From: a virus
Direction: 5' to 3' (one strand)
Virus record (IMG/VR): IMGVR_UViG_3300042560_001323
Span: 62,001-126,000 of that record
DNA length: 64,000 nt
Position numbers and translations under genes: made by a program. The notes below the pieces were generated by a model. That model searched no databases. It worked only from the letters and a program-made list of their open reading frames with translations, and was not told where the DNA came from. Positions within the stretch are counted from its first letter, which is position 1; every line of letters begins with the position of its first letter. Shown here piece by piece: positions 1,042-54,594 of the stretch.

Positions 1042-1192
1042 TAGTAACAAAAACCAATAAAAGTTCAAAAACTCTATTGGTTTTCTAGACGCTTCATGGC
1101 AGATGCTAAGTGGTGATAATCACCGCTCAGTCTTAATTCCGCTCCACGTCCGTAATCTGCATACTCTGCAGATGAAAGTTCTTTATCGGTTA
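1042..1192 (-). ncRNA. Structured repeat RNA, copy 1
   Basis: One of four related elements (others near 30.9, 31.5 and 50.6 kb). Read on the minus strand it has a hairpin ATCTGCA/TGCAGAT where the other copies have ATCGGTG/CACCGAT, a conserved block around GTGGAGCGGAATTAAGAC, an inner stem CTGAG/CTTAG capped by GGTG/CACC, the conserved GCATCTGC and GAAGCGTCT, and a final AT-rich hairpin followed by TTTTTGTT. The 5' part differs from the other copies and no clear late promoter box is seen. TATATAAT follows the hairpin and could be a -10 for the adenylyltransferase gene downstream. Confidence 0.75.
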
Positions 1193-1232
1193 GATTTCTC
1201 CAACCTTCTTTAAGAATGTGACAGATTCCGAA

Positions 1233-2258: not shown

Positions 2259-3356
2259 TCACATCGCAAATCCAATAGCGCGGGCTTCTTTCTTCTTGGT
2301 ATTTTTTTGAGAGTTGAAAATCTCAGCAATTGTGAAGTTTTTCTCAGGAAGTTCAACTTCTACGCCTTGCTTCTCCGCAACAGCAATTGCCTCATCTTTA
2401 GTAAGTTGACGGAACTGTAGAACATCAAAGCAACGACCTGGACGAATAAGGGCTTGGTCAACATCACTGAGACTGGCCAGGTTTGTCGTAAAGATAATCT
2501 TTTTATCAGACGATGAGATTAGACCATCACCAGCATTAAGAAACTTGTGAATAGTCCGGTTTCCGCTCTCACGGGAAGTCAAATATGCATCGGCGTCCTC
2601 AAAGATAAGATAGTTTACCGAAGAGTCATTAATGAAACTACTCAGGAAATTGTCGCTTTTAAGAATTGCATCATCATAGGAGAGTAGGGCATTCTTTTTT
2701 AAATGATGTAGTAGCCCACGAATGAACGTCGTTTTACCGGTTCCAGGTGGTCCCTGGAGCAAAAGAATAGAGGCAGAAGATGAGTTAAACCGTTCATAAT
2801 ATTCCTCAAGGCTTTCACCATTGAGGAAAGGATACATCTCAGTGAAAGGAGTATTCTTTATCTCCAGCTCTTTTGTAACTTTAACCATTTTATGATTGTC
2901 ATCCGTAAAACACCAGTTAATCATACATTTTTGTTCTTCGGTGTATTTTTCAAAATGTTCATATAGAACTGCGATAAATTTTTCAATTTCTTCTTTATCT
3001 CCACGCATCATTACATTAAAACTACGAGTATTAGATGTAATTGCGAAGTTTACAATAATATTATCAAAAATCAAACTATATGTATTAGTCGGACAAGTTG
3101 TGAATACTTGTGGTTTAGGATCGGGAAAAATTGTAATAAAATCTTCAAATTTTTCCCGAAATGCTTCATTAACCCCATTGTTTATCTGGCATTTCGGGGC
3201 CTCTAGATACACGTCTTCTGTGTGTAAATTTTTTCCTGCGTTAATATAATTAACAATAAATTGAGCATTGATGGCATTACGAAGCTCGTAACTACCAAAA
3301 GAATTATTATTTTGATGAAGAGTTGGGGCGGGAATGGTAAGACGGGTTTCGGTCAT
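2259..3356 (-). CDS. AAA ATPase, paralogue of 34057-35130
   Basis: About 365 residues from ATG 3356; a TTG at 3371 is the alternative. A Walker A motif GPPGTGKTTF lies a little past the middle, followed by Walker B LIFEDAD, a sensor-like IIFTTN and an ALIRPGR arginine finger, the pattern of BCS1/FtsH-type AAA modules. The N-terminal half is divergent and probably gives specificity. A second phage gene at 34057-35130 shares the arrangement, including the EYYE/DYYD lead-in before Walker A. It probably remodels a protein or DNA-protein complex; the partner is unknown. Its last 12 codons are duplicated at 1233-1291. Confidence 0.8.
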   Translation of the reverse strand: MTETRLTIPAPTLHQNNNSFGSYELRNAINAQFIVNYINAGKNLHTEDVYLEAPKCQINNGVNEAFREKFEDFITIFPDPKPQVFTTCPTNTYSLIFDNIIVNFAITSNTRSFNVMMRGDKEEIEKFIAVLYEHFEKYTEEQKCMINWCFTDDNHKMVKVTKELEIKNTPFTEMYPFLNGESLEEYYERFNSSSASILLLQGPPGTGKTTFIRGLLHHLKKNALLSYDDAILKSDNFLSSFINDSSVNYLIFEDADAYLTSRESGNRTIHKFLNAGDGLISSSDKKIIFTTNLASLSDVDQALIRPGRCFDVLQFRQLTKDEAIAVAEKQGVEVELPEKNFTIAEIFNSQKNTKKKEARAIGFAM

Positions 3357-3426
3357 CTTGATTAATTTCAAAGGTTTCTAGAGCCTAACACTTATAGGAA
3401 CCTTTGGTTGGGTTGTGTGCCAGTTG

Positions 3427-19652: not shown

Positions 19653-20147
19653 TTAGGGGGTGCTAATAAATGTAATCTTTGGTCTTAGCGGTGGTTCTTC
19701 CTCAGTTTCTTCCTTAGTGAAGTCAAACAGAGGAACGAACAATAAAGTCTTACCATCGTCCAAAAGCGTGTGCATACTCATTAATTCCCAAGTGGCATCC
19801 CTGGCGGCATACCAGGCGGCATACCAGGCGGCATCCCTGGCGGAATACCCGGCGGCATCCCCAGCGGCATACCAGGCGGCAGACCCGGCGGCATCCCTGG
19901 CGGCAGACCTGGCGGCAGACCCGGCGGCATCCCTGGCGGCAGACCCGGCGGCATTCCTGGCGGCAGAGTCTAGGGCACGGTAGCGGCGGGCAACTTCATT
20001 CCATTGGTCGGCAGTAAGACCATCCATGAACCACCAGAAGTTAAGGACGGTTTCGTAGTTTGGTCCTAGAAAGTCTTGTGGACTTGTAAGAGCTTCAGGG
20101 TTTTGAAGTTCGTTGAAGAAGTTTTGATGGGCTTTTGAGTAATACAT
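19653..20147 (-). CDS. Alanine tandem-repeat protein, copy 1
   Basis: About 164 residues if it starts at ATG 20147, aligned with its paralogues; an upstream ATG at 20180 would add 11 residues. The N-terminus has [28 protein letters not shown] and NEVARRY. The middle is a run of four-residue units of the form x-A-A-x coded by NGG NAT GCC GCC-like 12-mers. The C-terminus has [20 protein letters not shown] plus an acidic tail. Paralogues lie at 47134-47592 and 49209-49631, and a repeat-free one at 46718-47137. Function unknown. Confidence 0.75.
19798..19972 (-). repeat. 12-bp coding repeat (GCC GCC units)
   Basis: Imperfect tandem 12-mers of the form GGCGGCATNCCN (plus strand) that encode the alanine repeat of the gene above. 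Variation is confined almost entirely to the first bases of two codons per unit. Confidence 0.8.
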
Positions 20148-20226
20148 AAACTCCGTTGGATTTCTAAGAGAATAACCCATCTGGAGACCAAATGGGTTAA
20201 AACGTGGACAGTCTAAAAACCGTCTA

Positions 20227-22574: not shown

Positions 22575-22884
22575 TTTCCTTTCTCATTTCATCAATTAAG
22601 TATTGGACGCTATTAAGAGCATCTTGAATTGTATCCGCACCAAATAATCCTGAACAATCTTGAATTCTTTGCTTCATTTCTTGGGCTTCTTTATCTTCCG
22701 ATAGACTCAATCTTGCATAAAATAGATTGATTTTATTCAACATATCCTGAAGTGTATCAACTCTTTCAGACTTCTCTCGTAGACTTAGAGTTGGGAAAAT
22801 TAAGATATTTTCAGATATAACTGAACCAAGTTTTGAAATATTTTCAATTTCTTCTTGAACAATAGGAGAATCAAAGAAACTCAT
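22561..22884 (-). CDS. DUF1825 family protein
   Basis: 107 residues starting MSFFDSPIVQEEIENISKL, with YARLSLSEDKEAQEMKQRIQ in the middle. This matches the DUF1825 family of cyanobacteria and their T4-like phages in length and motifs. All-helical, function unknown. It is one of the better indicators of a cyanobacterial host. Confidence 0.85.
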   Translation of the reverse strand: MSFFDSPIVQEEIENISKLGSVISENILIFPTLSLREKSERVDTLQDMLNKINLFYARLSLSEDKEAQEMKQRIQDCSGLFGADTIQDALNSVQYLIDEMRKEIDRQ

Positions 22885-23471
22885 TGAATGTATTTGCGTA
22901 TTATGTTCTTGTATTTAGAGGAATCAAAATCAAGAAATGGTGCAAACTTTTCAATTTTATTGCTAACTAATGTCCATATTGGGTCTTGCAATGCCTCATC
23001 ATATTTTTCCTTCAAATTCAAAATCTCAACAAAGATAAAGAAGGTTTCAAATTTTATTGAGTTGTTAAGGTAACTTCTTAGAAGTTTTGGATGCTTTGAA
23101 CCATCTACCTTAACAACTTCAAATAAGTGTTGTGACTCCGTTAATTTTTTAAGGTCTTGCTCAAAGATATAAGACAGAGATTCTCTAATTCTTTTACTCT
23201 CTAGGTAAATTTTTTCTCCATTTTTTATGATATCTCCCACCCAAAGAGAGGATGGATTATCTGATGCAACAAAGTTAGAAACAAAGAAATCTACAATCTC
23301 CTGGGGCTTTTTCTTTCTACTCAGTCGTTCAAAAAACAACCGGTCTTTACTCTTTTTGTATGTTTCGGGAGAACATTTAATCTTTCCTTGATATTTAAAA
23401 AAATCGTATGAAGGTGTGGAAAAATGTCGCTTTAAGGCAAGAAAAGTGACGTAGACTTCATAAGGATTCAC
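22881..23471 (-). CDS. gp59: Loader of DNA helicase, gp59
   Basis: 196 residues, ATGA-type overlap with the DUF1825 gene. Features shared with T4 gp59: an N-terminal YVTFLALKRHF, YDFFKYQGKIK, the YKKSKDRLFFERLSRK region, FVSNFVASD followed by LWVGDI, ISFETFI-like IKFETFFIFVEIL and an ending LDFDSSKYKNIIRKY. gp59 loads the gp41 helicase on gp32-coated forks. It lies upstream of gp32 on the same strand, as in T4. Confidence 0.9.
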   Translation of the reverse strand: MNPYEVYVTFLALKRHFSTPSYDFFKYQGKIKCSPETYKKSKDRLFFERLSRKKKPQEIVDFFVSNFVASDNPSSLWVGDIIKNGEKIYLESKRIRESLSYIFEQDLKKLTESQHLFEVVKVDGSKHPKLLRSYLNNSIKFETFFIFVEILNLKEKYDEALQDPIWTLVSNKIEKFAPFLDFDSSKYKNIIRKYIQ

Positions 23472-23671
23472 GGGTTTTTAATAATTTCAGGTACGATATG
23501 GGTTTGAAAATACTCTTCAAATTTTTTCTTCAATTCCCTGTCTTCAATTCTCCGGGAAAATCCTAAAACTTCTTTTGTTGCTAACCAATAGATTTTTCCA
23601 CTATTATCTTTAGTTCTCGTTAGACTAGAGTAACCTAGGCCAGTAAAATGATAAGAACTTCTAATTATCAT
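23468..23671 (-). CDS. Unknown small protein between gp33 and gp59
   Basis: Sixty-seven residues, overlapping both neighbours by 4 bases. Contains YHFTGLGYSSLTRTKDNSGK and a basic helical end. No family recognised. Confidence 0.65.
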   Translation of the reverse strand: MIIRSSYHFTGLGYSSLTRTKDNSGKIYWLATKEVLGFSRRIEDRELKKKFEEYFQTHIVPEIIKNP

Positions 23672-23931
23672 AGAGGTAGCCGCGCTTTAGATGTTCGCTT
23701 CAAGAAGTTTAGTTTGATTGCATCGCCTTGAATTCTATCTTTGAGAGTCTTTGAAATTAGTTTTGTAATTGACTCAATATCAATGCTATTGACCTCACAA
23801 TATTCGGTGATTGCGGTAATATAATTCAAGTCATCCCTTTTAGAAACAAGAATCTCAATTTCTTTGGCGAATTTGTCTGGGCAGAGAAACTTTTTTTCTA
23901 TTTCTTTTTGTAGTTCTTCGGAAGCATTCAT
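23668..23931 (-). CDS. gp33: Late transcription coactivator gp33
   Basis: Eighty-seven residues. DLNYITAITEYCEVNSID and then SKTLKDRIQGDAIKLNFL parallel T4 gp33 (SYLEATTAFLEENSI, IIEKIQSEAIDENLL). gp33 bridges host RNA polymerase and the sliding clamp at late promoters. The order 32-59-33 is conserved with T4. Its presence fits the many late-promoter-like boxes seen here. Confidence 0.8.
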   Translation of the reverse strand: MNASEELQKEIEKKFLCPDKFAKEIEILVSKRDDLNYITAITEYCEVNSIDIESITKLISKTLKDRIQGDAIKLNFLKRTSKARLPL

Positions 23932-24635
23932 TGATTATCGGTGATAAATTTGTTTATATATTTTCTAAGAAGTTTAACGTATTTTTGAAGGTCTTTCTCA
24001 ATGTAAACTTCAACTTCTCCGTTTTGACAAGACATAATAATCACAAGTTGTTTTGGCATTACACTAAATCGTTCAGCGTACATATAGGCATATGAAAAGC
24101 ATTGAACAAAATAACCTTCAATCCATTCTAGTTTTTTGGGCTCCACTGATGTTTTATGGTCAATAACGCTAAGAACTCCATCAAACTCTGCAATCATATC
24201 GGGTGTTCCCGCAAGTTCCCAATCAAACGAATAAAGGGGAACTTCAATTGTATGAATCTTTCCAATTCTATTGAATGTAGAAAGAGCATTGTTGAACAGA
24301 AACTTAGCAAGAGCAGATTTTTCTGGAATTTCTTCGTTTTTAAAGTATGACTCAGAAAGAGCGTGGTATTGAGTTCCCAGTGTTGTTGCAAACTTAATAA
24401 CTCGTTTTGCCTCATCTTCGCCAACCTTCTTTCTCCATTCAGCAATCTTCTCTTTGGAGTAATTAGAAGTAACTGATGTAACAGAAATGAAAGTTTTATA
24501 GTCTTCAAAATCTGGAACCTTATAATACCTATTGCCGTCCAGAGTTACCCTTTCTATTTTCGGTATATTTAAATCTAGATGTTCAAATAACGGACGCTTG
24601 ATTTTATTTATTTTTTGTTTTAGGGTGCTACCCAT
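23928..24635 (-). CDS. PD-(D/E)xK exonuclease
   Basis: 235 residues. AGTPDMIAEFDGVLSVIDHK with TS gives the Asp and D-x-K catalytic residues of the RecB/Cas4-like nuclease fold. An upstream ALxxxYHALSESYF region supplies the conserved His/Glu. T4-like cyanophages carry this exonuclease next to gp33. Probably acts on DNA ends in recombination or host DNA degradation. Confidence 0.8.
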   Translation of the reverse strand: MGSTLKQKINKIKRPLFEHLDLNIPKIERVTLDGNRYYKVPDFEDYKTFISVTSVTSNYSKEKIAEWRKKVGEDEAKRVIKFATTLGTQYHALSESYFKNEEIPEKSALAKFLFNNALSTFNRIGKIHTIEVPLYSFDWELAGTPDMIAEFDGVLSVIDHKTSVEPKKLEWIEGYFVQCFSYAYMYAERFSVMPKQLVIIMSCQNGEVEVYIEKDLQKYVKLLRKYINKFITDNQ

Positions 24636-25746: not shown

Positions 25747-26511
25747 CTATTTAACAAGTTTCCAACCTCTATAAGTTTTTCTTTTTCCATTAATTAACCT
25801 ACTAATTCCACTTGGTAATAAATCATGTTCATTCGCAAATACTGATAATTCTCCAACAACCACATAATAGTATATACCATCAGGGGATTCCAAGCAATAT
25901 TTTTTACCAAATCCAGGTCTATTCCAATCCCTCGTAGGCTTTTTATTTTTAATTTTACAGGAATTAGTTAAAGTCCACCCTTTATGTGTATATTGTTTAT
26001 AGCAACGAAGTGATATTAGTGCATTTAAACTTAAATTATGTTCTCTGGCGAAATTAGTAATATTTGTGCCAGAATAAACAATTCCTTCGGGGGAAGTAAA
26101 TGAAAATTCTTTAGTCTGTAATGGAGGCTTTATTCCAAGTTCTTTTTGTTTTAAGCTAAATTTCAGTCTTTGCTCTTTAGTGTGAGGGGGTCTAGTAACT
26201 CTACCTTTAAGCGATTTACTGATTTTTCTCCTACTTTCTTCAGTATGTCCAGTAAAAACGGGAGGAGCATCTCCACCATTTGATTTATTACAGAGAAATC
26301 CAGTTCCTAAATCTTTTCTGCCAAATACATTAATCATATAAATTTCATGTTTATATGCCTCCTCTTCCGTGAGATTATTTTTAAGAATGAGTATTCTATC
26401 TTTTGGAGGAATTGTAAAATAATCATGTTTTTGGTATGCCCGTCTACCTTTCCCCTTACCGATATACCAAGGAGTTCCATCTTCTCGTAAATATGCGTAA
26501 GTATAATACAC
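25747..26511 (-). CDS. GIY-YIG-type homing endonuclease with NUMOD domains
   Basis: 254 residues from GTG 26511. N-terminal YTYAYLREDGTPWYIGKGKG is the catalytic GIY-YIG-like start with the YIGKG strand. A NUMOD3 motif (HTEESRRKISKSLKG) follows, then two repeated helix-turn-helix DNA-binding units (SGTNITNFAREHNLSLNALI and GELSVFANEHDLLPSGISRL, each ending GW or GWKL). It lies just downstream of the intein-bearing thyX. A CTAAATA box at 26537-26543 is 26 bases upstream. Confidence 0.85.
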   Translation of the reverse strand: MYYTYAYLREDGTPWYIGKGKGRRAYQKHDYFTIPPKDRILILKNNLTEEEAYKHEIYMINVFGRKDLGTGFLCNKSNGGDAPPVFTGHTEESRRKISKSLKGRVTRPPHTKEQRLKFSLKQKELGIKPPLQTKEFSFTSPEGIVYSGTNITNFAREHNLSLNALISLRCYKQYTHKGWTLTNSCKIKNKKPTRDWNRPGFGKKYCLESPDGIYYYVVVGELSVFANEHDLLPSGISRLINGKRKTYRGWKLVK

Positions 26512-26544: not shown

Positions 26545-28281
26545 TTAAGGGCTCAACCTTGCCTTACGGAATCTCTTCTCTTCATAATAAGCCCAAACAT
26601 TTGGAGCCCAGCGTTGTAGTTCTGGAACAATCGCATCACACAAAGCCTGAATCTCAAGTTGTGCATCAAGTTTGGCCCTTAAGTCTAGAAAATGTAGAAC
26701 CGAACGAAGATTAAATGAAACTACAAAATTTTGGCGAATAGCCTGAGCCAAAGAATCTCTAATATGTTCTTCAGACATTCCCCGTTCATACCTTGAGGCA
26801 TAACGCTTACACCCCTCAATGAAGTGCTCAAAATCTTCCTGGCGGTCTTCTTCTGTCCATTCGTACTTTTTACCTTTACGATTGGTATAGAAGCCAACAG
26901 GGCGAACGTAAAAAACATCTTCTACATCTAATTCACCGCTGGCAACTTTTAAAACCCGCTTCCCGGTGTAACGCTGCGACTGAACATCCCAAGTAGTTCC
27001 AATGCGATGGGTTCTACCCTGAACCATAACATTGTGGACGAATCCGGCACAAGAGAATGTAATCTGTGGATGCTCTAAACAGTTACCACATACTGCAACT
27101 TTATCATTACGACGAATAATAAGCGCACCAGTAGAAACCGTGGCACAATGAATTTCGCCTTCATAATCTACCCAGTTCTCGCTATAAGTTCTAGACCGGG
27201 TTGATTGTGAAATTTCAACTCTAGGATAGATTCTATCGGTGAGGCGTAAACAATAAAGGTCATTATGATTTTCGTTGTCTTTAATATCTTTACAGCAGGT
27301 AAACTTTAAATCGTTTATTGCGGCAATCGCTTGAAGTTGAGAGGCTAAACCATATGAGGTAGTTGAATATGCCCAAGTATTTCTACGATTCGTTCCATCC
27401 GAATTTCGCAAACCATCAAAAAGATTATAAACACAATCTTTTTCAAGTCGCAGATAACCATCGGGAAGTTTCTTAAAGTTTGAAGCGTAAAGGCAATTGG
27501 TTTTCATCCAATTTCCAATACCAGGATATGAAACAACATACCTATCATTTTTAGTTGAATAAAATTCTATCTCTAGTTCTTCACAGAGGGTTTGAAGATA
27601 TTCAATTTTCCTTTCTCGTTTTAAATGAAACCCTAGAGTGTTTGAACTAGTATGGGAATCCCCGTCTCCAACCCAAAATCCAATCAAGGCCCAAAAACTA
27701 GGATTATCAATTGGGGTATTTACAACGAGTCTTTCATTCTCCGAAAGATTTCCAGAAGTTGAATATCTAACGGGTTTATTATAAATTTCTTCCGCAGAAA
27801 TTGCATATCTTTCTGTCCAACTTCCATCTTTTTTTCTACTTTGAACAATCATTCTGTGGTCAGGACTAACTAAAAAGTCTAAAGCCTGACCCTCTAAATG
27901 ATACATTTTTCCTTTATAATCCCACCTTTGAACTGCGGTTGGCTTTTCAAAATTAACTAATCCAGTTTTTGTATCATAAGATGCTAATACTGTTTCTTTT
28001 GTTACGTCTGGCCAGAATATCCACCCATTTTCAGTTAAAACTTCCATATCAGATGAATAACAACCATAATGGCCACGGTCATTAGCAAGAAGTTGTTCAA
28101 CGATCCATTCACCACATTTCTGTGGAGTAGGAGTTTCAACTTGATGAATAGGAACTTCCGAGTAATCATTTTTACCCGCTTGCCATACAACCTGTTCTGG
28201 AATTGGATAGCATTGTAACATTACAACTTCTAATCTTGGATCTAGGAGTAGAAGGTCTTCCGCTTTAACTGGCCTGTTCAT
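26545..28281 (-). CDS. thyX: Flavin-dependent thymidylate synthase ThyX interrupted by an intein
   Basis: 578 residues. Residues 1-73 and 401-578 form a 251-residue ThyX, the usual size. The signature appears as RTHRIGTTWDVQSQRY (RHRxxS-like) and CLEHPQITF. Residues 74-400 are a 327-residue intein between GHYG and CLEHPQ. ThyX makes dTMP using FAD and methylene-tetrahydrofolate. The intein removes itself by protein splicing, leaving GHYG-CLEH. Both the intein's first residue and the residue after it are cysteine. Confidence 0.92.
   Translation of the reverse strand: MNRPVKAEDLLLLDPRLEVVMLQCYPIPEQVVWQAGKNDYSEVPIHQVETPTPQKCGEWIVEQLLANDRGHYGCYSSDMEVLTENGWIFWPDVTKETVLASYDTKTGLVNFEKPTAVQRWDYKGKMYHLEGQALDFLVSPDHRMIVQSRKKDGSWTERYAISAEEIYNKPVRYSTSGNLSENERLVVNTPIDNPSFWALIGFWVGDGDSHTSSNTLGFHLKRERKIEYLQTLCEELEIEFYSTKNDRYVVSYPGIGNWMKTNCLYASNFKKLPDGYLRLEKDCVYNLFDGLRNSDGTNRRNTWAYSTTSYGLASQLQAIAAINDLKFTCCKDIKDNENHNDLYCLRLTDRIYPRVEISQSTRSRTYSENWVDYEGEIHCATVSTGALIIRRNDKVAVCGNCLEHPQITFSCAGFVHNVMVQGRTHRIGTTWDVQSQRYTGKRVLKVASGELDVEDVFYVRPVGFYTNRKGKKYEWTEEDRQEDFEHFIEGCKRYASRYERGMSEEHIRDSLAQAIRQNFVVSFNLRSVLHFLDLRAKLDAQLEIQALCDAIVPELQRWAPNVWAYYEEKRFRKARLSP
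27082..28062 (-). mobile_element. Intein with LAGLIDADG endonuclease in ThyX
   Basis: It starts with Cys (CYSSDMEVLTENG), has block B VSPDHRM, LAGLIDADG-like motifs ALIGFWVGDGD and LFDGLRNSDG, block F YEGEIHCATV, and ends VAVCGN before Cys. The two acidic endonuclease motifs make it a homing-competent type. Insertion is inside the ThyX conserved core, the kind of site inteins favour. Confidence 0.9.
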
Positions 28282-28459
28282 TCTCTTGCTCTCCTTTTGC
28301 TCTCTTACGTGATTTTTTTAGGTCCTTCATCAATAGTTTAATCTCTTGATATGCCTCTTCTGCGGTCATCTTATCGCCAATCTCTAGGCCGACAATAATC
28401 TCAATTCTATCAGCAAAAGCCGCCATATCCTTTTCAAACGGGGTTAAATCATAAGCCAT
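28265..28459 (-). CDS. Small helical protein
   Basis: Sixty-four residues beginning MAYDLTPFEKDMAAFADRIE. Overlaps thyX by 17 bases. Helical with a basic KKSRKRAKGE end. Similar small proteins accompany thyX in cyanophages; function unknown. Confidence 0.65.
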   Translation of the reverse strand: MAYDLTPFEKDMAAFADRIEIIVGLEIGDKMTAEEAYQEIKLLMKDLKKSRKRAKGEQENEQAS

Positions 28460-28674
28460 TAGTCTTCCTCTTGGTATTCGGGGTCTTCATATTCGTCTTG
28501 TATCTTTTGTATCATATCTTCAAAACGAACAATATTCGTTTCTTCTTCCTCAACACAAACCTCATCTTTAAGAAGTTCAACAATATTCTCTAAATTTTGA
28601 ATCAAAAGTTTGAGACGTTTATTGTTTACTTTCTCGGGGACGGGCTGCTCTTGAGGTCGGTAATACCCTAGCAT
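28459..28674 (-). CDS. Small acidic protein
   Basis: Seventy-one residues with a helical middle (RLKLLIQNLENIVELLKDE) and acidic end (DEYEDPEYQEED). It overlaps the next start by one base. Unknown. Confidence 0.6.
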   Translation of the reverse strand: MLGYYRPQEQPVPEKVNNKRLKLLIQNLENIVELLKDEVCVEEEETNIVRFEDMIQKIQDEYEDPEYQEED

Positions 28675-28689
28675 AGTTCCTCCATTTTG

Positions 28690-29406
28690 TCAAGTCCCAA
28701 ACGTGTGGGTGGTATAAATTCCGTTCTTCTCTAAAACTGCGCTACAAGTATCAACCCAATCTCCACAGCAAAAATATTGATAACCGTCAATAATCCTATA
28801 ATTGAGATGATGAATGTGGCCAACAATTGCTCCAGTGTATAGCCTATTGTGAAGATTTTCTTTTATTCTTAGACCAGAAATAACATCCCGTTCATAAGAA
28901 TCAATATAATCTTTTCCGCGTTTTGTTTTCTTTAAAAAGTTTACCAACGATACATTGAAATTCTTCTTTAGGAAATGATTAAGAGGCGTAATCCATTCAT
29001 AGCCTTTATGTAAGAAAAACTGTTTCCAATCTCCAGATGAATGAGTTGAAAGTTTATCTCCGTGAATACACAAGAAGTTATTGCCCTTTGAATCTGTATG
29101 AACATATTCTCTACAGAATGTTATTCCACCAAAATTTCCAACGTAGCGAGATAAATCCTTTTCGTGGTTTCCATAGATGTAAACAATCTCACAGCCTTTA
29201 TTCTTCTTTTCCAGAAGTTTATGAATAATAAGGGTATGAAGTCTATTCCATTTTGAACCTCTTTCTAGGCACATTAAATCAATAACATCACCAACGAGAA
29301 CAAGTTTCTTCGTTTTAATTTCTGAAAGAAATTCTAAAAGGGCTTCGGCATCACATCGGTTCGTACCGATATGTAAATCCGAAATAAAAACGGTGTCGTG
29401 AATCAT
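28690..29406 (-). CDS. LpxH-like metallophosphoesterase
   Basis: 238 residues. Metal ligands in order: SDLHIG, GDVIDL, YGNHEKD, CIHGDK and GHIHH. This is the calcineurin-like phosphoesterase set of the UDP-2,3-diacylglucosamine hydrolase (LpxH) branch. The substrate in infection is unknown. The preceding gene speD overlaps by 4 bases. Confidence 0.85.
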   Translation of the reverse strand: MIHDTVFISDLHIGTNRCDAEALLEFLSEIKTKKLVLVGDVIDLMCLERGSKWNRLHTLIIHKLLEKKNKGCEIVYIYGNHEKDLSRYVGNFGGITFCREYVHTDSKGNNFLCIHGDKLSTHSSGDWKQFFLHKGYEWITPLNHFLKKNFNVSLVNFLKKTKRGKDYIDSYERDVISGLRIKENLHNRLYTGAIVGHIHHLNYRIIDGYQYFCCGDWVDTCSAVLEKNGIYTTHTFGT

Positions 29407-29738
29407 CTTCCGATATCAATAAGAGTATGATAGCTGGCATTCATCTGCTGAAGAATCCATTGGGCACCAAGTTTTGAATCTGCAATGCCGCAAGTATAAA
29501 TGTCAAAGGCTGCGGTTCCTTTCTCTGGAAAGGTATGAACTGAAATATGAGATTCTGATAAAAGAAGTATTGCCGTTACACCTTGCGGGTCAAATTTATG
29601 GGACACTACATTTAAAATGGTTGCTCCACATTCACTGGCAGCTTTTCTTAGCACTCGAATCATAAAGTCTTCGTTATCAAGAATCTCAAACTTACAACCA
29701 TAAACATTGAGCAAACAATGGTGTCCCATACTAACCAT
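29403..29738 (-). CDS. speD: S-adenosylmethionine decarboxylase proenzyme SpeD
   Basis: 111 residues from ATG 29738, chosen because GGAGG lies nine bases upstream. The self-cleavage site is in LSESHISVHTFPEKG, where the Ser becomes the pyruvoyl group; GHHCLLN and FDIYTCG are conserved neighbours. The enzyme decarboxylates SAM for spermidine/spermine-type polyamine synthesis. speD is a recurrent cyanophage auxiliary gene, likely supporting DNA packaging or replication. Confidence 0.92.
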   Translation of the reverse strand: MVSMGHHCLLNVYGCKFEILDNEDFMIRVLRKAASECGATILNVVSHKFDPQGVTAILLLSESHISVHTFPEKGTAAFDIYTCGIADSKLGAQWILQQMNASYHTLIDIGR

Positions 29739-29898
29739 TTGGAATATCCTCCAAAAGTTTAGAGACGATTTGCTCGGTTCCGTCAAGAGTTTTCATTTCA
29801 TATAGACTACTTTTCATATATTTTTTAATCTTCTTATATCGTTTGAGGAGTTTATTCAACTCATTATCATTAATAATCGCTCTTGCGAAACCGCTCAT
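29731..29898 (-). CDS. Small basic protein upstream of speD
   Basis: Fifty-five residues, MSGFARAIINDNELNKLLKR at the start, basic helix, ends EDIPNG. Its ATG 29898 overlaps the upstream stop (ATGA), and its own stop overlaps the speD start, so all three are coupled. Unknown. Confidence 0.65.
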   Translation of the reverse strand: MSGFARAIINDNELNKLLKRYKKIKKYMKSSLYEMKTLDGTEQIVSKLLEDIPNG

Positions 29899-30212
29899 TT
29901 CTTTTTGTTTACCTCTTCTGTTTTCTTATTTTGTCTCCAAATTCTTGGACTAACTCTTCCATTAGAGTAATCAATTTTTTCAATCACTCCCCCGAACCGG
30001 TCATAATATAAATCAAAAATGTCAACCATTCTGGCTGCTCTACAAATGTCCACTTTTTCTCCTTCTTTATCCTTATAGTAAATTAAATAAGAATCCGACG
30101 GAAGGGCATAGGTATTGACATCTAAAGTGTTAATGAAAAGAAGTTCGCATCTATAAGATGTTGGAACGGCTTCTTGTTCAGGTAAAGACCAAGGTTCAAG
30201 GGTTGCGATCAC
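29895..30212 (-). CDS. Unknown 105-residue protein
   Basis: Starts at GTG 30212 (GTGA overlap). Contains YRCELLFINTLDVNTYALPS, then an aromatic-rich FDLYYDRFGGV. C-terminus basic (NKKTEEVNKKK). No family recognised. Confidence 0.65.
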   Translation of the reverse strand: MIATLEPWSLPEQEAVPTSYRCELLFINTLDVNTYALPSDSYLIYYKDKEGEKVDICRAARMVDIFDLYYDRFGGVIEKIDYSNGRVSPRIWRQNKKTEEVNKKK

Positions 30213-30772
30213 ACTCTATTCCCCCATTGAATCTCGGGAAATGCTTCTTTAACAACATCAAAGGAAATGTTATACTTTTCTTGTAGCTTTTTATCTTTCA
30301 CAAAACAAATAATTTCAGCCTCACGAGGATGTAGACCTTGTAGCAGATTGATGAACATTGTTTCCCGGCGAATTCCAGAAAGGGAATCATTGCCACCACG
30401 GATAAAGTTAAAGAAATTAGTGTATTCCTTACGAATAGTTGTTCGGTTATTACTACCATAAGAATCTAACATCTCATCGGTTTTTAGTTGCTTATTCATA
30501 CTATCCGAAAAGGTTGTATCATTTCCAACAACGCCAATTTCTCTGGCATCGGCAAACGGTACATCACCCGGAGGAATTGCAGATTCTAAGCTTTGGTCAT
30601 AATTCCAAATGAATACTGCCATCATAGATGGGTCCTTATATTCTTGAAGAACTTCTACTTTTTTGGCATTGGAACGTTGTCTTTCAACCAAGTCAAAAAC
30701 TTCAAATAGAAATGGATTGGCTGGAAGTTTTTTAGGCGTAGTCACCTTCGTCGTCTTCGTCTGTGTCGTCAT
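30209..30772 (-). CDS. DUF6433-like T4-type protein
   Basis: About 187 residues. ATG 30772 begins MTTQTKTTKVTTPKKLPANP; a TTG at 30784 is less likely. Contains FEVFDLVERQRS, FNFIRGGNDSLSG, LLQGLHPREAE. T4-like phages carry this family in the structural or replication region; role unclear. Its first codons overlap the out-of-frame relic of the membrane protein gene at 31038-31259. Confidence 0.7.
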   Translation of the reverse strand: MTTQTKTTKVTTPKKLPANPFLFEVFDLVERQRSNAKKVEVLQEYKDPSMMAVFIWNYDQSLESAIPPGDVPFADAREIGVVGNDTTFSDSMNKQLKTDEMLDSYGSNNRTTIRKEYTNFFNFIRGGNDSLSGIRRETMFINLLQGLHPREAEIICFVKDKKLQEKYNISFDVVKEAFPEIQWGNRV

Positions 30773-30831
30773 AATTTTGATCAAATGTTACTGCGTAAAG
30801 TATGTCTGGTTTGATAGGCCCGTCGCTATTA
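30732..30831 (-). pseudogene. Relic of the 3' end of the gene at 31038-31259
   Basis: The minus-strand frame reads SDGPIKPDILYAVTFDQNYD followed by an acidic end and stop, closely matching the C-terminus of the membrane protein at 31038-31259. It is fused directly to the 3' end of RNA copy 2 and lacks any start. It overlaps the first codons of the 30209-30772 gene in another frame. Confidence 0.75.
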
Positions 30832-30832
30832 T

Positions 30833-31000
30833 AGTAACAAAAACCAATAAGAGCCAAAAACTCTATTGATTTTATAGACGCTTCATAGCAGATGCTAAAT
30901 GGTAAATAACCTTTTTAGTCTTAATTCCGCTCCACGTCCGTAATCGGTGTACTCCACCGATACCCGAAAAGTATTAACTAGCCGAGCGTCTTTATTTATC
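30833..31000 (-). ncRNA. Structured repeat RNA, copy 2
   Basis: The minus strand begins with GATAAATA (30993-31000), a late-promoter-like box, then about ten bases before GCTCGG. Hairpins include ATCGGTG/CACCGAT, the closing stem around ACGTGGAG and GCGTCT, CTAAA/TTTAG capped by GGT/ACC, and a terminal hairpin (CAATAGAG/CTCTTATTG) followed by TTTTTGTT. Same layout as copies 3 and 4. Confidence 0.85.
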
Positions 31001-31037
31001 TAACTTTTGTTTGTGGATAACTGAAAATACTCTATTC

Positions 31038-31259
31038 TCAGGCGTCCTTATAATCTTCTTCGTCTGTGTCGTCATAATTTTGGTCAAAAGTTACTGCATA
31101 AAGGATATCTGGTTTGATAGACCCGTCGTAGTTATACATCTCGGGGTGAAGTCTAGGAGCCGGGGGATAAAACTTGGATGCTATAAATCCAATAACACCA
31201 CCGAGCATTAAAAAGCAAAGAACTACTAGGACCGTTAGGGCAGTTATGAGGCCATACAT
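31038..31259 (-). CDS. Small membrane protein with acidic tail
   Basis: Seventy-three residues with one membrane span (about residues 5-28, LITALTVLVVLCFLMLGGVI) and an acidic C-terminus (DQNYDDTDEEDYKDA). Ends partly duplicated at 30732-30831. Lies between RNA copies 2 and 3. Function unknown; single-span holin-like accessory is only a guess. Confidence 0.65.
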   Translation of the reverse strand: MYGLITALTVLVVLCFLMLGGVIGFIASKFYPPAPRLHPEMYNYDGSIKPDILYAVTFDQNYDDTDEEDYKDA

Positions 31260-31408
31260 TTTAGTTTTCTCCTGAATGTTTTTTTAGTTATTTTTAACTC
31301 AATCTTCAGGTGAATTTCTTTTGAGAAAAAGGAAACTACCTTAGCAATTCTAAAATTAAATAGTTCCTCCGTTTTTCTTTGCTTTTTATTGCGGAGCATA
31401 AACTCCAT
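31244..31408 (-). CDS. Small basic protein, tandem duplicate B
   Basis: Fifty-four residues, MEFMLRNKKQRK start, then FNFRIAKVVSFFSKEIHLKI. Its ATG 31408 begins six bases after the terminal hairpin of RNA copy 3. It duplicates 31564-31692 with a longer C-terminus that overlaps the next gene. Confidence 0.55.
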   Translation of the reverse strand: MEFMLRNKKQRKTEELFNFRIAKVVSFFSKEIHLKIELKITKKTFRRKLKCMAS

Positions 31409-31412
31409 AGTA

Positions 31413-31567
31413 TGGAAAATCACTAAACTATAGTGATTTTCCAGACGCTTCACCGCAGATGCTAATTGGTATGAATAACCTATTAGTCTTAATTCCGCTC
31501 CACGTCTGTAATCGGTGTACTCCACCGATACCCGAAAAGCATTAACTAACCGAGCACAATTATTTAG
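31413..31567 (-). ncRNA. Structured repeat RNA, copy 3
   Basis: Late-promoter-like CTAAATA (31561-31567) then GTGCTCGGTTAG. Stems: ATCGGTG/CACCGAT, CAGACG/CGTCTG, CTAAT/ATTAG around GGT/ACC. The terminal hairpin GGAAAATCACTA/TAGTGATTTTCC (12 bp) has a sequence unrelated to that of the other copies but the same place and shape. Confidence 0.88.
31561..31567 (-). promoter_or_regulatory. Late-promoter-like CTAAATA of RNA copy 3
   Basis: The box overlaps the stop of orf A (TAA inside CTAAATA) and is followed after about seven bases by the conserved RNA 5' end. RNA copies 2 and 4 have equivalent boxes at the same distance. Confidence 0.6.
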
Positions 31568-31692
31568 GAAGGTCTTTCAGTTATTTTTAACTCAATTTTG
31601 AGATGAATTTCTTTTGAAAAAAAAGAAACTGCCTTAGAAATTCTAAAATTGAATAGTCCAGCCTTTTTTTCCTGTTTTTTAGAACGGAGCAT
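31564..31692 (-). CDS. Small basic protein, tandem duplicate A
   Basis: Forty-two residues from ATG 31692 (MLRSKKQEKKAG, then FNFRISKAVSFFSKEIHLKI). Paralogue of 31244-31408 with most residues shared. Unknown function. Confidence 0.5.
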   Translation of the reverse strand: MLRSKKQEKKAGLFNFRISKAVSFFSKEIHLKIELKITERPS

Positions 31693-31705
31693 ATATTCAA
31701 TACCC

Positions 31706-32059
31706 CTATTTAGTTTTAACTTTGGCTCTCCTTCCTGGTCTTTTGTCATAAACATATTTCTCCGCGTCTTTAATAAATGCTTCCAGGTAGGTCTTAATAC
31801 GCCGAGCAAAAGGCTTTGAGAGGTGTCCATAAGCCTCTCTAAGGTAGCAGTGGCGAGGGTCTTGGCCACCCTCAAGGTATTCGGACAATTCTTGTATGGT
31901 TGTCTTTAGATTGACTACTGTGGGGCTACCCAAAAAATCCTGGGCATCAGTTCTTCTAAATTCTTTTTGCTGAAGATATGTATATAAATTAAGAATGAAC
32001 TTGCTCTCGGCGAAGGCAAAATCTACTGCTTTTTCTACATCAAGATAGACTTCTTCCAT
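31706..32059 (-). CDS. Unknown helical protein
   Basis: 117 residues, MEEVYLDVEKAVDFAFAESK at the start and a basic C-terminus (KRPGRRAKVKTK). Contains CYLREAYGHLSKPFARRIKT. Overlaps glutaredoxin by TAATG. No family recognised. Confidence 0.65.
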   Translation of the reverse strand: MEEVYLDVEKAVDFAFAESKFILNLYTYLQQKEFRRTDAQDFLGSPTVVNLKTTIQELSEYLEGGQDPRHCYLREAYGHLSKPFARRIKTYLEAFIKDAEKYVYDKRPGRRAKVKTK

Positions 32060-32295
32060 TAGAGAATTTTTTGATCTTTTAGGAATAGAATTGTATCTTT
32101 ACAACCCCCCAGTTTTATAGTATTCATTAAAACTTGAGGAAAAGTTGTCCCCTCACCAAACTCATAGTAAAAATCATCTTTTGAGTAATGCTCGCCAAGA
32201 TTGAGTATGGAGTAATCTAAACCGGCAAGATGCATAACTTTTTTAATTTGGTCGCAATATGGGCAACCGTCTTTTGAATAAATTACGAATTTCAT
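32059..32295 (-). CDS. grx: Glutaredoxin
   Basis: Seventy-eight residues, YSKDGCPYCDQIKK active site (CPYC), then TFPQV and GGCKDT of the thioredoxin fold. It probably supplies reducing power to ribonucleotide reductase, encoded at 59.9-64 kb, as in T4. Confidence 0.88.
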   Translation of the reverse strand: MKFVIYSKDGCPYCDQIKKVMHLAGLDYSILNLGEHYSKDDFYYEFGEGTTFPQVLMNTIKLGGCKDTILFLKDQKIL

Positions 32296-37907: not shown

Positions 37908-38765
37908 TCAGGTGGACTCCGATGTTAGTTTAAGTATTCTTAAAATATCTTTATGTGGAGATTTTCTTTTATTGCTTACGATATAATATAATGAATTTGG
38001 TTTATAGTTATTGTTCATTGCCCATTCAGATAAGCAAAAAATTATTTCACATCTACCGTCATTAAATTCAATTTTATAGTGTGATGAATTTGAATTTTTA
38101 TTTCCAGGTTTTGAATAATTACCAGTTAATGGTAATCTTCCAGGTTTCCATCCATTTGGGCATTCTGGGCAAAACTTTTGCTCACATTCATTATTCCACC
38201 ATTTATTTTTCTTTCTTTCATTAGTGAGCCTATCTACAATTTCTCTATCTATTTTATTTCCTTTTGAATAATTATTTCCCAATAAAGACTTACTAATTTT
38301 TCTTTTAGTTTCTTCGGTTAGAGGTTTACCTTTTTTTGCTTCACTCATTTTTCTTCTGGTTTCTTCTGATAGATTTTTACTCGCCTCACTCATTTTTCTT
38401 TTACTTTCTTCAGAATGTGATTTACCATAAAGAGGGTGATTTTTACCTTTACGACACTCACTCATTTTCCGTCTAGTTTCCATAGATAGATTTGCTGGAG
38501 CAACTCCACCATCACTTCTATTTCTCAATAAACCAGTACCTAAATCTTTTCTGCCGAAAACAGCAATCATATATCTTTCGTGATGGAGAGCTTCATCTTC
38601 TGTTAGATTTTGTTTTAGAAAGATTATTCTTAGTTTATCTTTAGGGGGGTTTACTTCATTTTTCCCTTTACGGTAAATTCTTCTTCCTTGTCCTTTCCCA
38701 ATATAATAAGGACTTCCATCTTCACGCAAATATGCGTAAGTATAAAACCTTTTTGGGTCTTTCAT
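37908..38765 (-). CDS. GIY-YIG-type homing endonuclease with NUMOD3 repeats
   Basis: 285 residues from ATG 38765, chosen over upstream codons because the catalytic domain begins here. YTYAYLREDGSPYYIGKGQG, then AVFGRKDLGTGLL, then NUMOD3 repeats (HSEESKRKMSEASKN, LTEETKRKISKSLLG) and a KWWNNECEQKFCPECP module. TATAAATA lies 27 bases upstream. It is closely related to the endonuclease at 25747-26511 in its catalytic domain. Confidence 0.85.
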   Translation of the reverse strand: MKDPKRFYTYAYLREDGSPYYIGKGQGRRIYRKGKNEVNPPKDKLRIIFLKQNLTEDEALHHERYMIAVFGRKDLGTGLLRNRSDGGVAPANLSMETRRKMSECRKGKNHPLYGKSHSEESKRKMSEASKNLSEETRRKMSEAKKGKPLTEETKRKISKSLLGNNYSKGNKIDREIVDRLTNERKKNKWWNNECEQKFCPECPNGWKPGRLPLTGNYSKPGNKNSNSSHYKIEFNDGRCEIIFCLSEWAMNNNYKPNSLYYIVSNKRKSPHKDILRILKLTSEST

Positions 38766-38791
38766 CTGCTCTATAAATTGACTTGCAATGC

Positions 38792-38799
38792 TATTTATA
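38792..38799 (-). promoter_or_regulatory. Late promoter TATAAATA
   Basis: Exact T4 late consensus 27 bases before the endonuclease ATG at 38765. A second exact box lies at 38871-38878. Confidence 0.6.
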
Positions 38800-38890
38800 T
38801 TTTTAAATTTTAAGGGGAAGTATGATAACTCCCCCAACCTGAAAAGATGCAAGTCAATTACAGGCATTAGTATTTATACCGCTAAAAAAT

Positions 38891-46721: not shown

Positions 46722-47137
46722 ATATTGTCAAACAATGAAACGAAAATCAGTCGTTTGCCCTGCTCCAGTAAGATGTGCATACCGATTAATTCTTGAGTTG
46801 CCCAGGTGACTGCCCTAGCCTCATCTAAGTCTTCAGTCCCATAATCATCGGCGTAATGTGACCAGATAGAATGCCAAGTGGCCTGCAGGGCTGCGTGTGC
46901 GGCTTTTGGATTTACGAAATGAGCAGCATCTTCTACATTACCAACAGAATTGTATTTAATTATGTAATCATATCGCTTGGCAACTTCTCTAAATTGAACT
47001 GTAGTAAGTGTATCAATCCATAACCAAAAATTTATGACCGCCGCACAATTCGGACCCAAAAAGTCTTCGGGGCGCTCCAAGGATTCAGAGGCTTCTGAGT
47101 ATTTGCTAAACCGTTGGTGAATTTTAGAGTAGGTCAT
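46718..47137 (-). CDS. Repeat-free paralogue of the alanine-repeat proteins
   Basis: 139 residues. Shares YSKIHQRF, FLGPNCAAVINFW, the VAKRYDY region and the end (ATQELIGMHILLEQGKRLIF) with the alanine-repeat proteins, but the middle is ordinary (KAAHAALQATWHSIWSHYAD). Suggests the repeat block is an insertion or expansion in a domain that also exists without it. Confidence 0.75.
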   Translation of the reverse strand: MTYSKIHQRFSKYSEASESLERPEDFLGPNCAAVINFWLWIDTLTTVQFREVAKRYDYIIKYNSVGNVEDAAHFVNPKAAHAALQATWHSIWSHYADDYGTEDLDEARAVTWATQELIGMHILLEQGKRLIFVSLFDNI

Positions 47138-47592
47138 AAGTCGTTAAAAAAAGGAACGAACAATAAAGTCTTACCATCGTCCAAAAGCGTGTGCATACCA
47201 ATTAGTTCATAGGTGGCATTCCTGGCGGCATACCCGGCGGCAAAATAGGCGGCAGACCCGGCGGCATCCCTGGCGGCAGACCAGGCGGCATCCCCGGCGG
47301 CATACCCGGCGGCAAAATAGGCGGCAGACCCGGCGGCATCCCTGGCGGCAGACCAGGCGGCATCCCCGGCGGCATACCCGGCGGCATACCTGGCGGCATC
47401 CCAGGCGGCATCGTCTAGGGCATCATAACGGCGGGCAACTTCATACCATTGGTTCTCGGTAAGACCGTCCATAAACCACCAGAAGTTAAGGACGGTTTCG
47501 TAGTTTGGTCCTAGAAAATTCTGTGGATTTTTTAGGGCTTCAGGGTTTTGAAGGCGGTTGGAGAAGTTTTGGTGGGCTTTTGAGTAATTCAT
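47134..47592 (-). CDS. Alanine tandem-repeat protein, copy 2
   Basis: 152 residues, ATGA overlap. Starts [20 protein letters not shown], then a repeat block of x-A-A-x quartets that itself contains a 60-bp duplicated segment, and ends [20 protein letters not shown]. Its closest relatives lie at 19653 and 49209. Function unknown. Confidence 0.78.
47208..47413 (-). repeat. 12-bp coding repeat block
   Basis: GGCGGCATNCCN 12-mers plus a larger duplicated segment with GGCGGCAAAATA, the alanine-coding repeat of copy 2. Confidence 0.8.
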
Positions 47593-48939: not shown

Positions 48940-49212
48940 TCATTGAGTTAATTTATCTTCATATTCTTGAAAAATATTCATTTCCCAATAATCAAACTCT
49001 TCTTGAATTTTACGTTTTGCATCTTTGTATGATTTTTCGGTAAGACACCCCGGATTTTGATAAAGAATTTTCATTTGTTCAAGGGCATTTTGTAAGCCTT
49101 GGATATATTCAAAACTATATTTGCGGGCATTATATTGCTCTAAGGTCTCGGTTACTCCATCTGGGTAATAAAACTTTTCTGTTTGAGAATTAAATGTAAT
49201 TTGATTAGTCAT
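48940..49212 (-). CDS. Helical protein
   Basis: Ninety residues, [20 protein letters not shown] start, then helices. No family recognised. Confidence 0.6.
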   Translation of the reverse strand: MTNQITFNSQTEKFYYPDGVTETLEQYNARKYSFEYIQGLQNALEQMKILYQNPGCLTEKSYKDAKRKIQEEFDYWEMNIFQEYEDKLTQ

Positions 49213-49631
49213 AAGTCGTTAAAAAGAGGAACGAACAACAAAGTCTTACCAGCATTCAATAAAGTGTGCATACCAATTAGTTCATAAGTTGCATACCCGG
49301 CGGCATACCCGGCGGCATACCCGGCGGCATCCCAGGCGGCATACGCGGCGGCATCCCAGGCGGCATCCCAGGCGGCATTCCTGGCGGCATCCCAGGCGGC
49401 ATCCCTGGCGGCATTCCTGGCGGCATACCTGGCGGCATACCAGGCGGCAGAGTCTAGGGCACGGTAGCGGCGGGCAACTTCATTCCATTGGTCGGCAGTA
49501 AGACCATCCATAAACCACCAGAAGTTAAGGACGGTTTCGTAGTTTGGTCCTAGAAAGTTTTGTGGACTTGTAAGAGCTTCAGGGTTTTGAAGTTCGTTGG
49601 AGAAGTTTTGGTGTGTTTTGGAAATTGGCAT
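49209..49631 (-). CDS. Alanine tandem-repeat protein, copy 3
   Basis: 140 residues, [20 protein letters not shown] start, then a repeat block rich in x-A-A-x units, ending [20 protein letters not shown]. Third of this family in the window. Confidence 0.78.
49292..49454 (-). repeat. 12-bp coding repeat block
   Basis: Repeated 12-mers coding the alanine units of copy 3. Confidence 0.8.
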
Positions 49632-50032: not shown

Positions 50033-50476
50033 TTACTGTAGGTAAGACCTCAACTTATAAACATTCTTACCGTGGGATTCCATCAAATCCTGCACAAGAT
50101 TTGCAGTTGCATAACTTCTTTGTTTTTCCGCTTCTTCGGAAATGTCTGTGAGCATTTCAATAAGACGTTCATTATCTGCACGCAGTTGTTCTACCATACC
50201 TCTTGCATCAATCTCTTGATTGGCATTGGCTGGCCCTTCAATAGCAGAAACCTCAACAATCCGCTCAAGTCTTGAGACTGGGCGAATGTTGAGGTAGCGC
50301 ATATGCTCACTGAGCCTATCAATCTCATCAAACATTTCGGTATATTGGTCGCCAAAAAGTTCGTGTAACTGAGGAAAATCCGTTCCAACGACATTATGAT
50401 GGTAGTTCCAGGTTTTCTGGAATAGAACAAACAATGTGGCCTGGGTGTCACTCAATAGTTTAAATAATTTTTCCAT
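50033..50476 (-). CDS. dps: Dps/ferritin-like protein
   Basis: 147 residues from ATG 50476. WNYHHNVVGTDFPQLHELFG and FDEIDRLSEHMRYL match the Dps ferroxidase and helix-2 pattern (His, then LHEL, then D...E). Binds DNA and stores iron to protect against peroxide. The start lies 17 bases after RNA copy 4. Confidence 0.88.
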   Translation of the reverse strand: MEKLFKLLSDTQATLFVLFQKTWNYHHNVVGTDFPQLHELFGDQYTEMFDEIDRLSEHMRYLNIRPVSRLERIVEVSAIEGPANANQEIDARGMVEQLRADNERLIEMLTDISEEAEKQRSYATANLVQDLMESHGKNVYKLRSYLQ

Positions 50477-50492
50477 TATAGTCTTTTTGAAT

Positions 50493-50660
50493 AGTAACAA
50501 AAACCAATAAGAGTCAAAAACTCTATTGATTTTCTAGACGCTTCATAGCAGATGCTAAATGGTTTAAATAACCTTTTAGTCTTAATTCCACTCCACGTCT
50601 GTAATCGGTGTACTCCACCAATACCCGAAAAGCATTAACTAACCGGGCACAATTATTTAG
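50493..50660 (-). ncRNA. Structured repeat RNA, copy 4
   Basis: Late-promoter-like CTAAATA (50654-50660) then GTGCCCGG. Hairpin ATTGGTG/CACCGAT uses a G-U pair, CTAAA/TTTAG closes the inner domain, and the terminal hairpin (CAATAGAGT/ACTCTTATTG) is followed by TTTTTGTT. It occupies the 5' leader of dps. Confidence 0.88.
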
Positions 50661-50663
50661 GTC

Positions 50664-51071
50664 TTAGAGCAACTTCAAATGACCAGTAATATCCTGAAGT
50701 TCTTCCTTTGTTGCAGGACCAATGGCACAACAAGTAAGGGTCTTAACCCCTTTAAATTCGGTAAGTCCCGAGTCTTCAATAATCTCGCAAATTTGATTGG
50801 TTAGTTTTGCCTTATCGTAGATGGCTAAAAGTTCTTCTTCAGAATCCACTGACACGCAAATCTTAGTAAATGCACCCTTTAGCCACTCTTTAACCCGCCA
50901 ATCAATTAGATGTGGTAGAATGGCAGCCACAGAGGCGTGTGCGCCTTGTGCGACCATCTTACCCTTCCGCATATTTAAGTCTTTGCGTATTACGATGACT
51001 TGTTGTAGTTTGTTTGTTTCTTCTCCTTGTTCTGCAATTTCTGTCATATCTTCATAGTTAAGGTTAGTCAT
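50664..51071 (-). CDS. pth2: Peptidyl-tRNA hydrolase PTH2 family
   Basis: 135 residues. QVIVIRKDLNMRKGKMVAQG then AHASVAA and GLTEFKGVKTLTCCAIGPAT are PTH2 signatures. Releases peptidyl groups from stalled tRNAs. Uncommon in T4-like phages and interesting beside the tRNA cluster. Confidence 0.85.
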   Translation of the reverse strand: MTNLNYEDMTEIAEQGEETNKLQQVIVIRKDLNMRKGKMVAQGAHASVAAILPHLIDWRVKEWLKGAFTKICVSVDSEEELLAIYDKAKLTNQICEIIEDSGLTEFKGVKTLTCCAIGPATKEELQDITGHLKLL

Positions 51072-54311: not shown

Positions 54312-54594
54312 CACCCCGTGAGGGCTACGATCCCCCGATCTACTGCTTAGCGTACCACTATGGTTTTCACCACCACCACATTTAGTGTTTGTGGTCTGGA
54401 CCATCCCTTCACCATATTTCTTAAGAACTTAGGTGCTTCCCGTCTGGTCTCTACACGTTCAAGATTTCTCTTGCTTCGCTCGGGATTGCCATTTTAAAGG
54501 TTTCCCCGAATTTGAGAAGTTACATTCATAGAGTTTCCCCTATGGCGCTCCATCAGTTTAAGGCAGTTGCTTTATCCGGCTAAGCTAACGGGGC
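54312..54594 (-). tRNA. tRNA-Arg (UCU) interrupted by a group I intron
   Basis: 5' exon 54560-54594 and 3' exon 54312-54350 join to a tRNA with acceptor GCCCCGT/ACGGGGT, D arm GCTT/AAGC, and anticodon stem ACTGC/GCAGT with loop CTTCTAA (anticodon TCT). The intron follows U34. The T loop (ATCGTAG) is atypical, with U54 and A58 swapped. A CTAAATA box at 54633-54639 lies 39 bases upstream. Confidence 0.85.
54351..54559 (-). other. Group I intron (209 nt, no ORF) in tRNA-Arg
   Basis: The core elements appear in order: AAATTCGGGGAAACC (P) and GGCAATCCCGAGC (Q) forming P4/P5, then GTGTAGAGACCAGACGGG (R) and GAAGGGATGGTCCAGACC (S) forming P7, with P8 (CACC/GGTG) between them and P9 (CCACA/TGTGG) after. 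The last base is G. The core resembles the tRNA introns of cyanobacteria. Confidence 0.88.

Follow-up and report, generated by a model that had tools for sequence, protein, structure and literature searches.

In a T4-like phage genome, short cassettes at three sites (w2, w3 and w4) probably encode solo guide RNAs that home with TnpB supplied in trans, in a manner resembling intronless homing. The cassettes belong to a repeat RNA that is present in four copies, all on the minus strand, in the window, by which we mean the whole stretch of 64,000 nucleotides that was analysed; the window spans positions 62001-126000 in a virus record of 243,166 bases (G000), in which 11 copies occur on both strands. 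The host phage has cyanophage affinity (its gp17 terminase scores ~51-56% against Synechococcus phages), and the window also carries T4-type tail and baseplate proteins and a ribonucleotide reductase. Neither a megablast of window positions 40000-64000 against 50,697 isolate phage records nor a distant blastn of the cassette region against 50,697 phage records gave a match; the pattern of the solo 5' part was found in no stretch of the GTDB genomes and, in IMG/VR, in L010 and L011 only. A match search over 20 records matched 10 of them. The features of the window are listed in Table 1.

Table 1. Positions of cassette parts, duplicated gene segments and the tnpB remnant within the 64,000-nucleotide window
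Feature	Position	Strand	Basis
w4 solo cassette: left-end-derived 5' part, omega-RNA and right end, in the gap between the PTH2 gene and dps	50492..50662	-	sequence match
w4 late-promoter motif CTAAATA	50654..50660	-	sequence; motif enrichment
w4 omega-RNA core and right end, final bases TTACTA	50492..50623	-	covariance-model match, 150.2 bits
w4 predicted guide, spanning dps leader and start codon	50470..50491	-	position only; inference from ISDra2 reRNA
w3 solo cassette, right-end hairpin of other type	31408..31569	-	sequence and covariance-model match
Gene C start, guide-side (native-like) copy; first ~20 nt are the predicted w3 guide	31282..31409	-	
Gene C segment, diverged upstream copy; starts at same homologous base	31575..31702	-	
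w2 solo cassette; 1-nt deletion breaks old tnpB frame	30832..30999	-	
Gene A 3' part, guide-side copy; first ~20 nt are the predicted w2 guide	30751..30833	-	
Gene A 3' segment, diverged upstream copy inside intact gene A (31038-31259)	31054..31136	-	
w1 truncated tnpB 3' remnant, omega-RNA and right end kept	1042..1213	-	

Origin and fold of the repeat RNA

Aligned with their flanks, several copies of the repeat run upstream into codons of the TnpB C-terminus, and the repeat RNA overlaps the 3' ends of all four full-length tnpB genes of the record (intact genes of 398 aa at 22779-23975, 31028-32224, 190307-191503 and 220801-221997). Pfam scans of two of the four proteins returned Cas12f1-like_TNB, OrfB_IS605 and HTH_OrfB_IS605, one TnpB of the record matches the PDB sequence of ISDra2 TnpB with E = 8.5e-75, and a profile search of the record recovered all four proteins and one truncated copy. 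The D-E-D residues of the RuvC catalytic motif look intact by eye in all four. Because copies extend into TnpB codons and the tnpB genes of the record match TnpB, the repeat is, as judged from its sequence, the tnpB 3' end plus the right end of an IS200/IS605-type element, that is, an omega-RNA (reRNA) scaffold. TnpB, the ancestor of Cas12, and its omega-RNA are themselves already known, as are standalone omega-RNAs. The reRNA of ISDra2 is reported to consist of the tnpB 3' end and the right end, with its last ~16 nt drawn from flanking DNA and serving as the guide, and reRNA supplied from a separate plasmid to form active ISDra2 TnpB complexes (PMC8612924). Dead copies are found at 200098 (which has no core), at 14849 and at w1, so decay is common.

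The fold was assessed on an alignment of 20 of the 31 core matches, which omits two sequences identical to w2 (L010, L119), four near duplicates (L030, L035, L038, L041) and five that lack the right-end hairpin or reach a contig end (L012, L026, L027, L028, L034). Shuffle z-scores for the four window copies range from -3.7 to -5.2, and RNAalifold on the 20 sequences gives 37 pairs, 15 of them changed on both sides. In a 39-pair structure 95.6% of cells are paired and 15 of the 39 pairs are doubly changed, against a shuffled mean of 4.1 and with none of 500 shuffles reaching the observed count; slid versions of the structure have 35-49% of cells paired, a control biased in favour of the structure since it was derived from the same sequences. 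Constraint is also evident within the gene: among 12 of the 19 tnpB loci (near duplicates L027 and L030, partial L034 and L042, and distant L036, L037 and L040 being omitted), the synonymous difference is 0.172 in the last 33 codons and 0.380 elsewhere, where the lowest of 333 windows is 0.287, and the amino acid difference in those last 33 codons is not low. This synonymous drop indicates that the constraint acts on the RNA inside the coding sequence.

Architecture of the solo cassettes

The w2, w3 and w4 cassettes lack the tnpB body, and over ~38 nt at their 5' end, promoter motif included, they share homology with the left end of intact elements. Of 44 comparisons of the solo 5' part with left ends, 37 score above all 200 shuffles (the worst at 3/200); the shared stretch also holds a 4-bp left-end hairpin that is paired in 15/15 sequences, with covariation. 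With both element ends kept and tnpB gone, as in non-autonomous IS605 derivatives, the three cassettes are recognizable by sequence as deletion derivatives of the TnpB element that consist of left end, omega-RNA and right end. The internal deletion places the late-promoter motif CTAAATA directly before the guide RNA. This motif occurs 10 times in the 5832 nt upstream of 98 ORFs, mostly ~30 nt from the start, whereas 51,663 nt of gene interior hold 6 sense-strand occurrences; its density in the 60 nt preceding genes is thus ~14 times that of the same strand within them. The enrichment makes a late promoter of the T4/cyanophage type credible. A simple promoter/terminator scan detected no sigma-70-type site in 50400-50800 and called nothing inside the cassette, the end hairpin included.

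The end hairpin of the cassette is the right-end hairpin of the element; together with its U-rich tail it could stop transcription ahead of the guide. The 1-nt deletion in w2 leaves the helix unbroken. A right-end variant without the terminal hairpin (..CAATAGAGTTTTTTACTA) is present in L012, L026, L028, L034 and L222; the terminal hairpin thus seems dispensable, with TTACTA kept. At G000:129510 there is a different solo, also found in a sibling contig, with ATAAATAG just before the omega-RNA, and its distinct type suggests that solo copies probably arose more than once.

A preliminary description of this DNA had proposed a repeat RNA joined in each copy to a late-type promoter and a hairpin. 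The repeat is real (pairwise matches among the four window copies have E = 1e-22 to 1e-64, and the fold is significant), and the enrichment of CTAAATA upstream of ORFs bears out the promoter type; the three-part unit holds for w2, w3 and w4 and fails for w1, a truncated tnpB remnant without the promoter part.

Insertion sites in the phage and its relatives

At w2 and w3 the locus-specific DNA in the guide position begins a gene segment, the 3' part of gene A and the small gene C respectively; on the upstream side of the cassette there is a second, diverged copy of that segment, which starts from the homologous base. In a search near 20 elements, an upstream copy starting at the boundary was seen only at these two sites, matches elsewhere being weak; w4 and the solo at 129510 have no second copy nearby. 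The DNA after w2 is a 3' remnant of gene A that runs into the start of a DUF6433 gene, and the small gene after w3, whose start codon lies at the junction, is a frameshifted spare copy of gene C. Compared with L126, the guide-side copy at w3 is identical at 121/126 positions and the upstream copy at 100/124; the downstream, guide-side copy reads as the native one, and it is frameshifted relative to L126, the upstream copy being open. The difference is small at w2 (73/83 guide-side, 70/83 upstream), and L120-L124, which are more distant, resemble both copies to about the same degree. The predicted 20-nt guide has 4 mismatches (w2) or 6 (w3) to the resident upstream copy. To the L126 allele it has 1 mismatch at w3 and 5 at w2, counts by which the model gains support at w3 but not at w2; the w2 guide has no good match in any sampled relative. 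A query with the exonuclease for the empty site of the intact element at 31028 gave 13 pattern matches, none of them a relative; the sequences available for comparison with a TAM are GAGATG|TA at w2 and AGGGG|TA at w3.

All six relatives that cover w2 and w3 (L120-L124 and L126; L123 was checked by blastn only) have a single copy of the segment and no cassette. In sibling L010, 30714-31142 (guide arm, cassette and upstream copy, ~429 bases) has one mismatch, the flank 28061-30700 is 92.5% identical, and 0/2280 flank windows of 398 nt are as similar as the w2 block; one difference against ~7% in the flank argues that the block moved recently as a unit. The w2 cassette would thus behave as a homing element does, being absent from cassette-free alleles and apparently moving with co-conversion of its flanks. 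The core at 129510 is likewise identical at 129/130 positions in L217, its flanks there being 87-89% identical. At the w4 site the relatives L056 and L058 are free of the cassette, and a different gene follows PTH2. Where G000 retains a 72-nt remnant, a complete solo is found in L011, and the bases upstream of it resemble those at w3.

Several further observations concern these loci and their genomes. In L011 the predicted guide resembles the start of the downstream gene (17/19 nt, by eye only). Just upstream of w1, the 3' end of the AAA-ATPase gene (2259-3371) is part of a 60-bp, 98% duplication (1233-1292 / 2241-2300) with small ORFs between its two copies, another 3'-end duplication beside an element copy. 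Elsewhere in the record, an intact TnpB element (G000:188446-192079, L023) separates the terminase gene gp17 into two halves; by eye, both halves end in intein-like sequence at Walker A (N half ..RQVGK/CFDINT.., C half ..IVSHN/STAVV..), so that the arrangement looks like a split-intein 'fractured gene' in which TnpB occupies the gap. Also by eye, a full intein carrying LAGLIDADG-like motifs sits in the gp17 of sibling L220, with a tnpB element just before the gene, and the gp17 of L039 has a mini-intein, with TnpB before the gene. L042, whose contig ends inside tnpB, is a further record noted in this context; a candidate intein in DSL-LC03 gp17 was dropped, that gene being annotated as one ORF. 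The window has a group I intron (RF00028, 55.2 bits, 54376-54570, minus strand), two paralogous NUMOD3-bearing ORFs (25747-26511, below the Pfam cut-off, and 37908-38867) that are probably free-standing homing endonucleases, and three related genes (19653-20180, 47134-47592 and 49209-49631) with long 12-bp repeats of the GGCGGCATACCC type, one of which was checked in Pfam and had no match.

Proposed mechanism, alternatives and known systems

We propose that, late in infection, the solo RNA would be transcribed through the right end with ~16-20 nt of downstream DNA as its guide, and would load onto TnpB made from other loci. The complex would then cut cassette-free alleles in co-infecting relatives, and repair of the cut genome would bring in the cassette together with the diverged gene copy. 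With this upstream copy in place the host gene would stay whole, and mismatches would let the copy escape the guide. Parts of this route can be read from the genomes compared here, namely the descent from tnpB, the promoter position, the fold, the site duplication at w2 and w3, the empty sites and the transfer of the w2 block. In a more specific form, which we put forward tentatively and as somewhat doubtful, the cassette would be an RNA-only 'cleave-and-rescue' drive: a 170-nt late-promoter guide gene coupled to a resistant target copy, which would rely on TnpB encoded at other loci of the phage and would spread between co-infecting phages, genomes without the cassette being either destroyed or converted. 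In that case TnpB would operate as a distributed system in this genome, made up of several genes for the nuclease and several guide loci that are independent.

The solos might instead be dead MITE/PATE-like relics, internal deletions once moved by a transposase from elsewhere and now without guide function. The retention of both element ends with tnpB lost, and the presence of decayed copies in the genome, agree with this, yet we think it unlikely: two solo forms both have a late-type promoter beside the omega-RNA, and the w2 and 129510 blocks are near-identical in siblings against 7-12% divergence in their flanks, although recent transfer alone could explain the latter. Moreover, the 243-kb record gave no match to the Y1 transposase (PF01797), controls having matched, and no serine transposase was found in it. 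A transposase for solo movement could come from elsewhere; with neither type in the record, homing is left as the simplest mover. It is harder still to see the cassettes as a decoy or inhibitor RNA aimed at an RNA-guided nuclease of the host or of a rival, as with the single CRISPR repeats borne by phages: an RNA-only unit with its own promoter would suit that role, but the scaffold fits the TnpB family that the phage itself carries and the duplication at the guide boundary would be left unexplained, which makes this highly improbable.

That the cassettes regulate the gene that follows, as a leader or attenuator or as a TldR-like repressor based on TnpB, is also quite improbable. The RNA does end in a hairpin with a T-rich tail, and w4 lies 15 nt before the dps ATG; the common core, however, belongs to tnpB, the downstream genes are unrelated, relatives have those genes without the cassette, and the D-E-D residues look intact by eye in all four TnpB, unlike in TldR, which is nuclease-dead. 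The attenuator or riboswitch leader raised in the preliminary description is therefore not supported, the RNA being a TnpB omega-RNA with no match to any leader or riboswitch family of Rfam at gathering or permissive thresholds, and w2 and w3 being followed by duplicated segments. The statement that copies end just before a gene survives for w4 and, loosely, for w1 (58 nt from the next gene), and not for w2 and w3; cassettes lie before genes because the guide abuts the insertion site. The likeness to PeSL cassettes also falls, with CTAAATA in place of a sigma-70-type site and an RNA derived from tnpB. Better borne out were the mobile cassette and, as a sequence-level reading, the independent small RNA: comparing synteny showed that six relatives have the sites empty, that copies lie at other sites as well, and that one block was transferred recently.

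If homing by solo guide RNAs is correct, TnpB in phages is more than a keeper of transposons, since its guides now exist as genes of their own, able to multiply and to change target without the nuclease. Such separation of the guide would resemble a step on the path from TnpB to CRISPR arrays, would be a natural precedent for engineered gene drives with a recoded rescue, and makes a testable claim on competition among lytic phages. Repeats before phage genes may, moreover, be solo omega-RNAs missed by annotation. In the literature searched, which left out most subscription papers, no phage was found in which several solo omega-RNAs with promoters of their own lie beside diverged target copies.

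Among known systems, the PeSL of T4-type phages are likewise small units of promoter and stem-loop between genes; they have early promoters and no tnpB ancestry. PATE is the name given to non-autonomous IS605 derivatives, and PATE/MITE-like elements keep both ends and have the protein gene deleted, as the solos do; the solos, by contrast, keep an intact omega-RNA and a promoter, and at two sites have a duplicated gene segment. ISDra2 and other IS200/IS605 OMEGA systems (Karvelis 2021, PMC8612924) have a homologous TnpB, and their RNA likewise originates in the 3' end of tnpB plus the right end and takes its guide from flanking DNA, whereas the phage RNA also stands alone with a late promoter, beside diverged target copies, and no TnpA was found. 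Virus-borne mini-CRISPR arrays are reported as guide-only loci aimed at relatives, with the nuclease in trans (PMC11656645); that nuclease is the host's, whereas the solo RNAs would use a TnpB of the phage itself and form no array. Plasmid inheritance is reported to be biased by TnpB when TnpA is not active, a gene drive that, as described, involves whole insertion sequences with the guide in cis, unlike the solo cassettes (PMC11870625). In T4 phages intronless homing is known and homing in trans is cited, and SegF and MobE/I-TevIII are described as elements beside a resistant target allele that spread by repair in co-infection, with the nuclease possibly in trans (PMC2993671); their specificity lies in protein, and that of the solo cassettes would lie in RNA.
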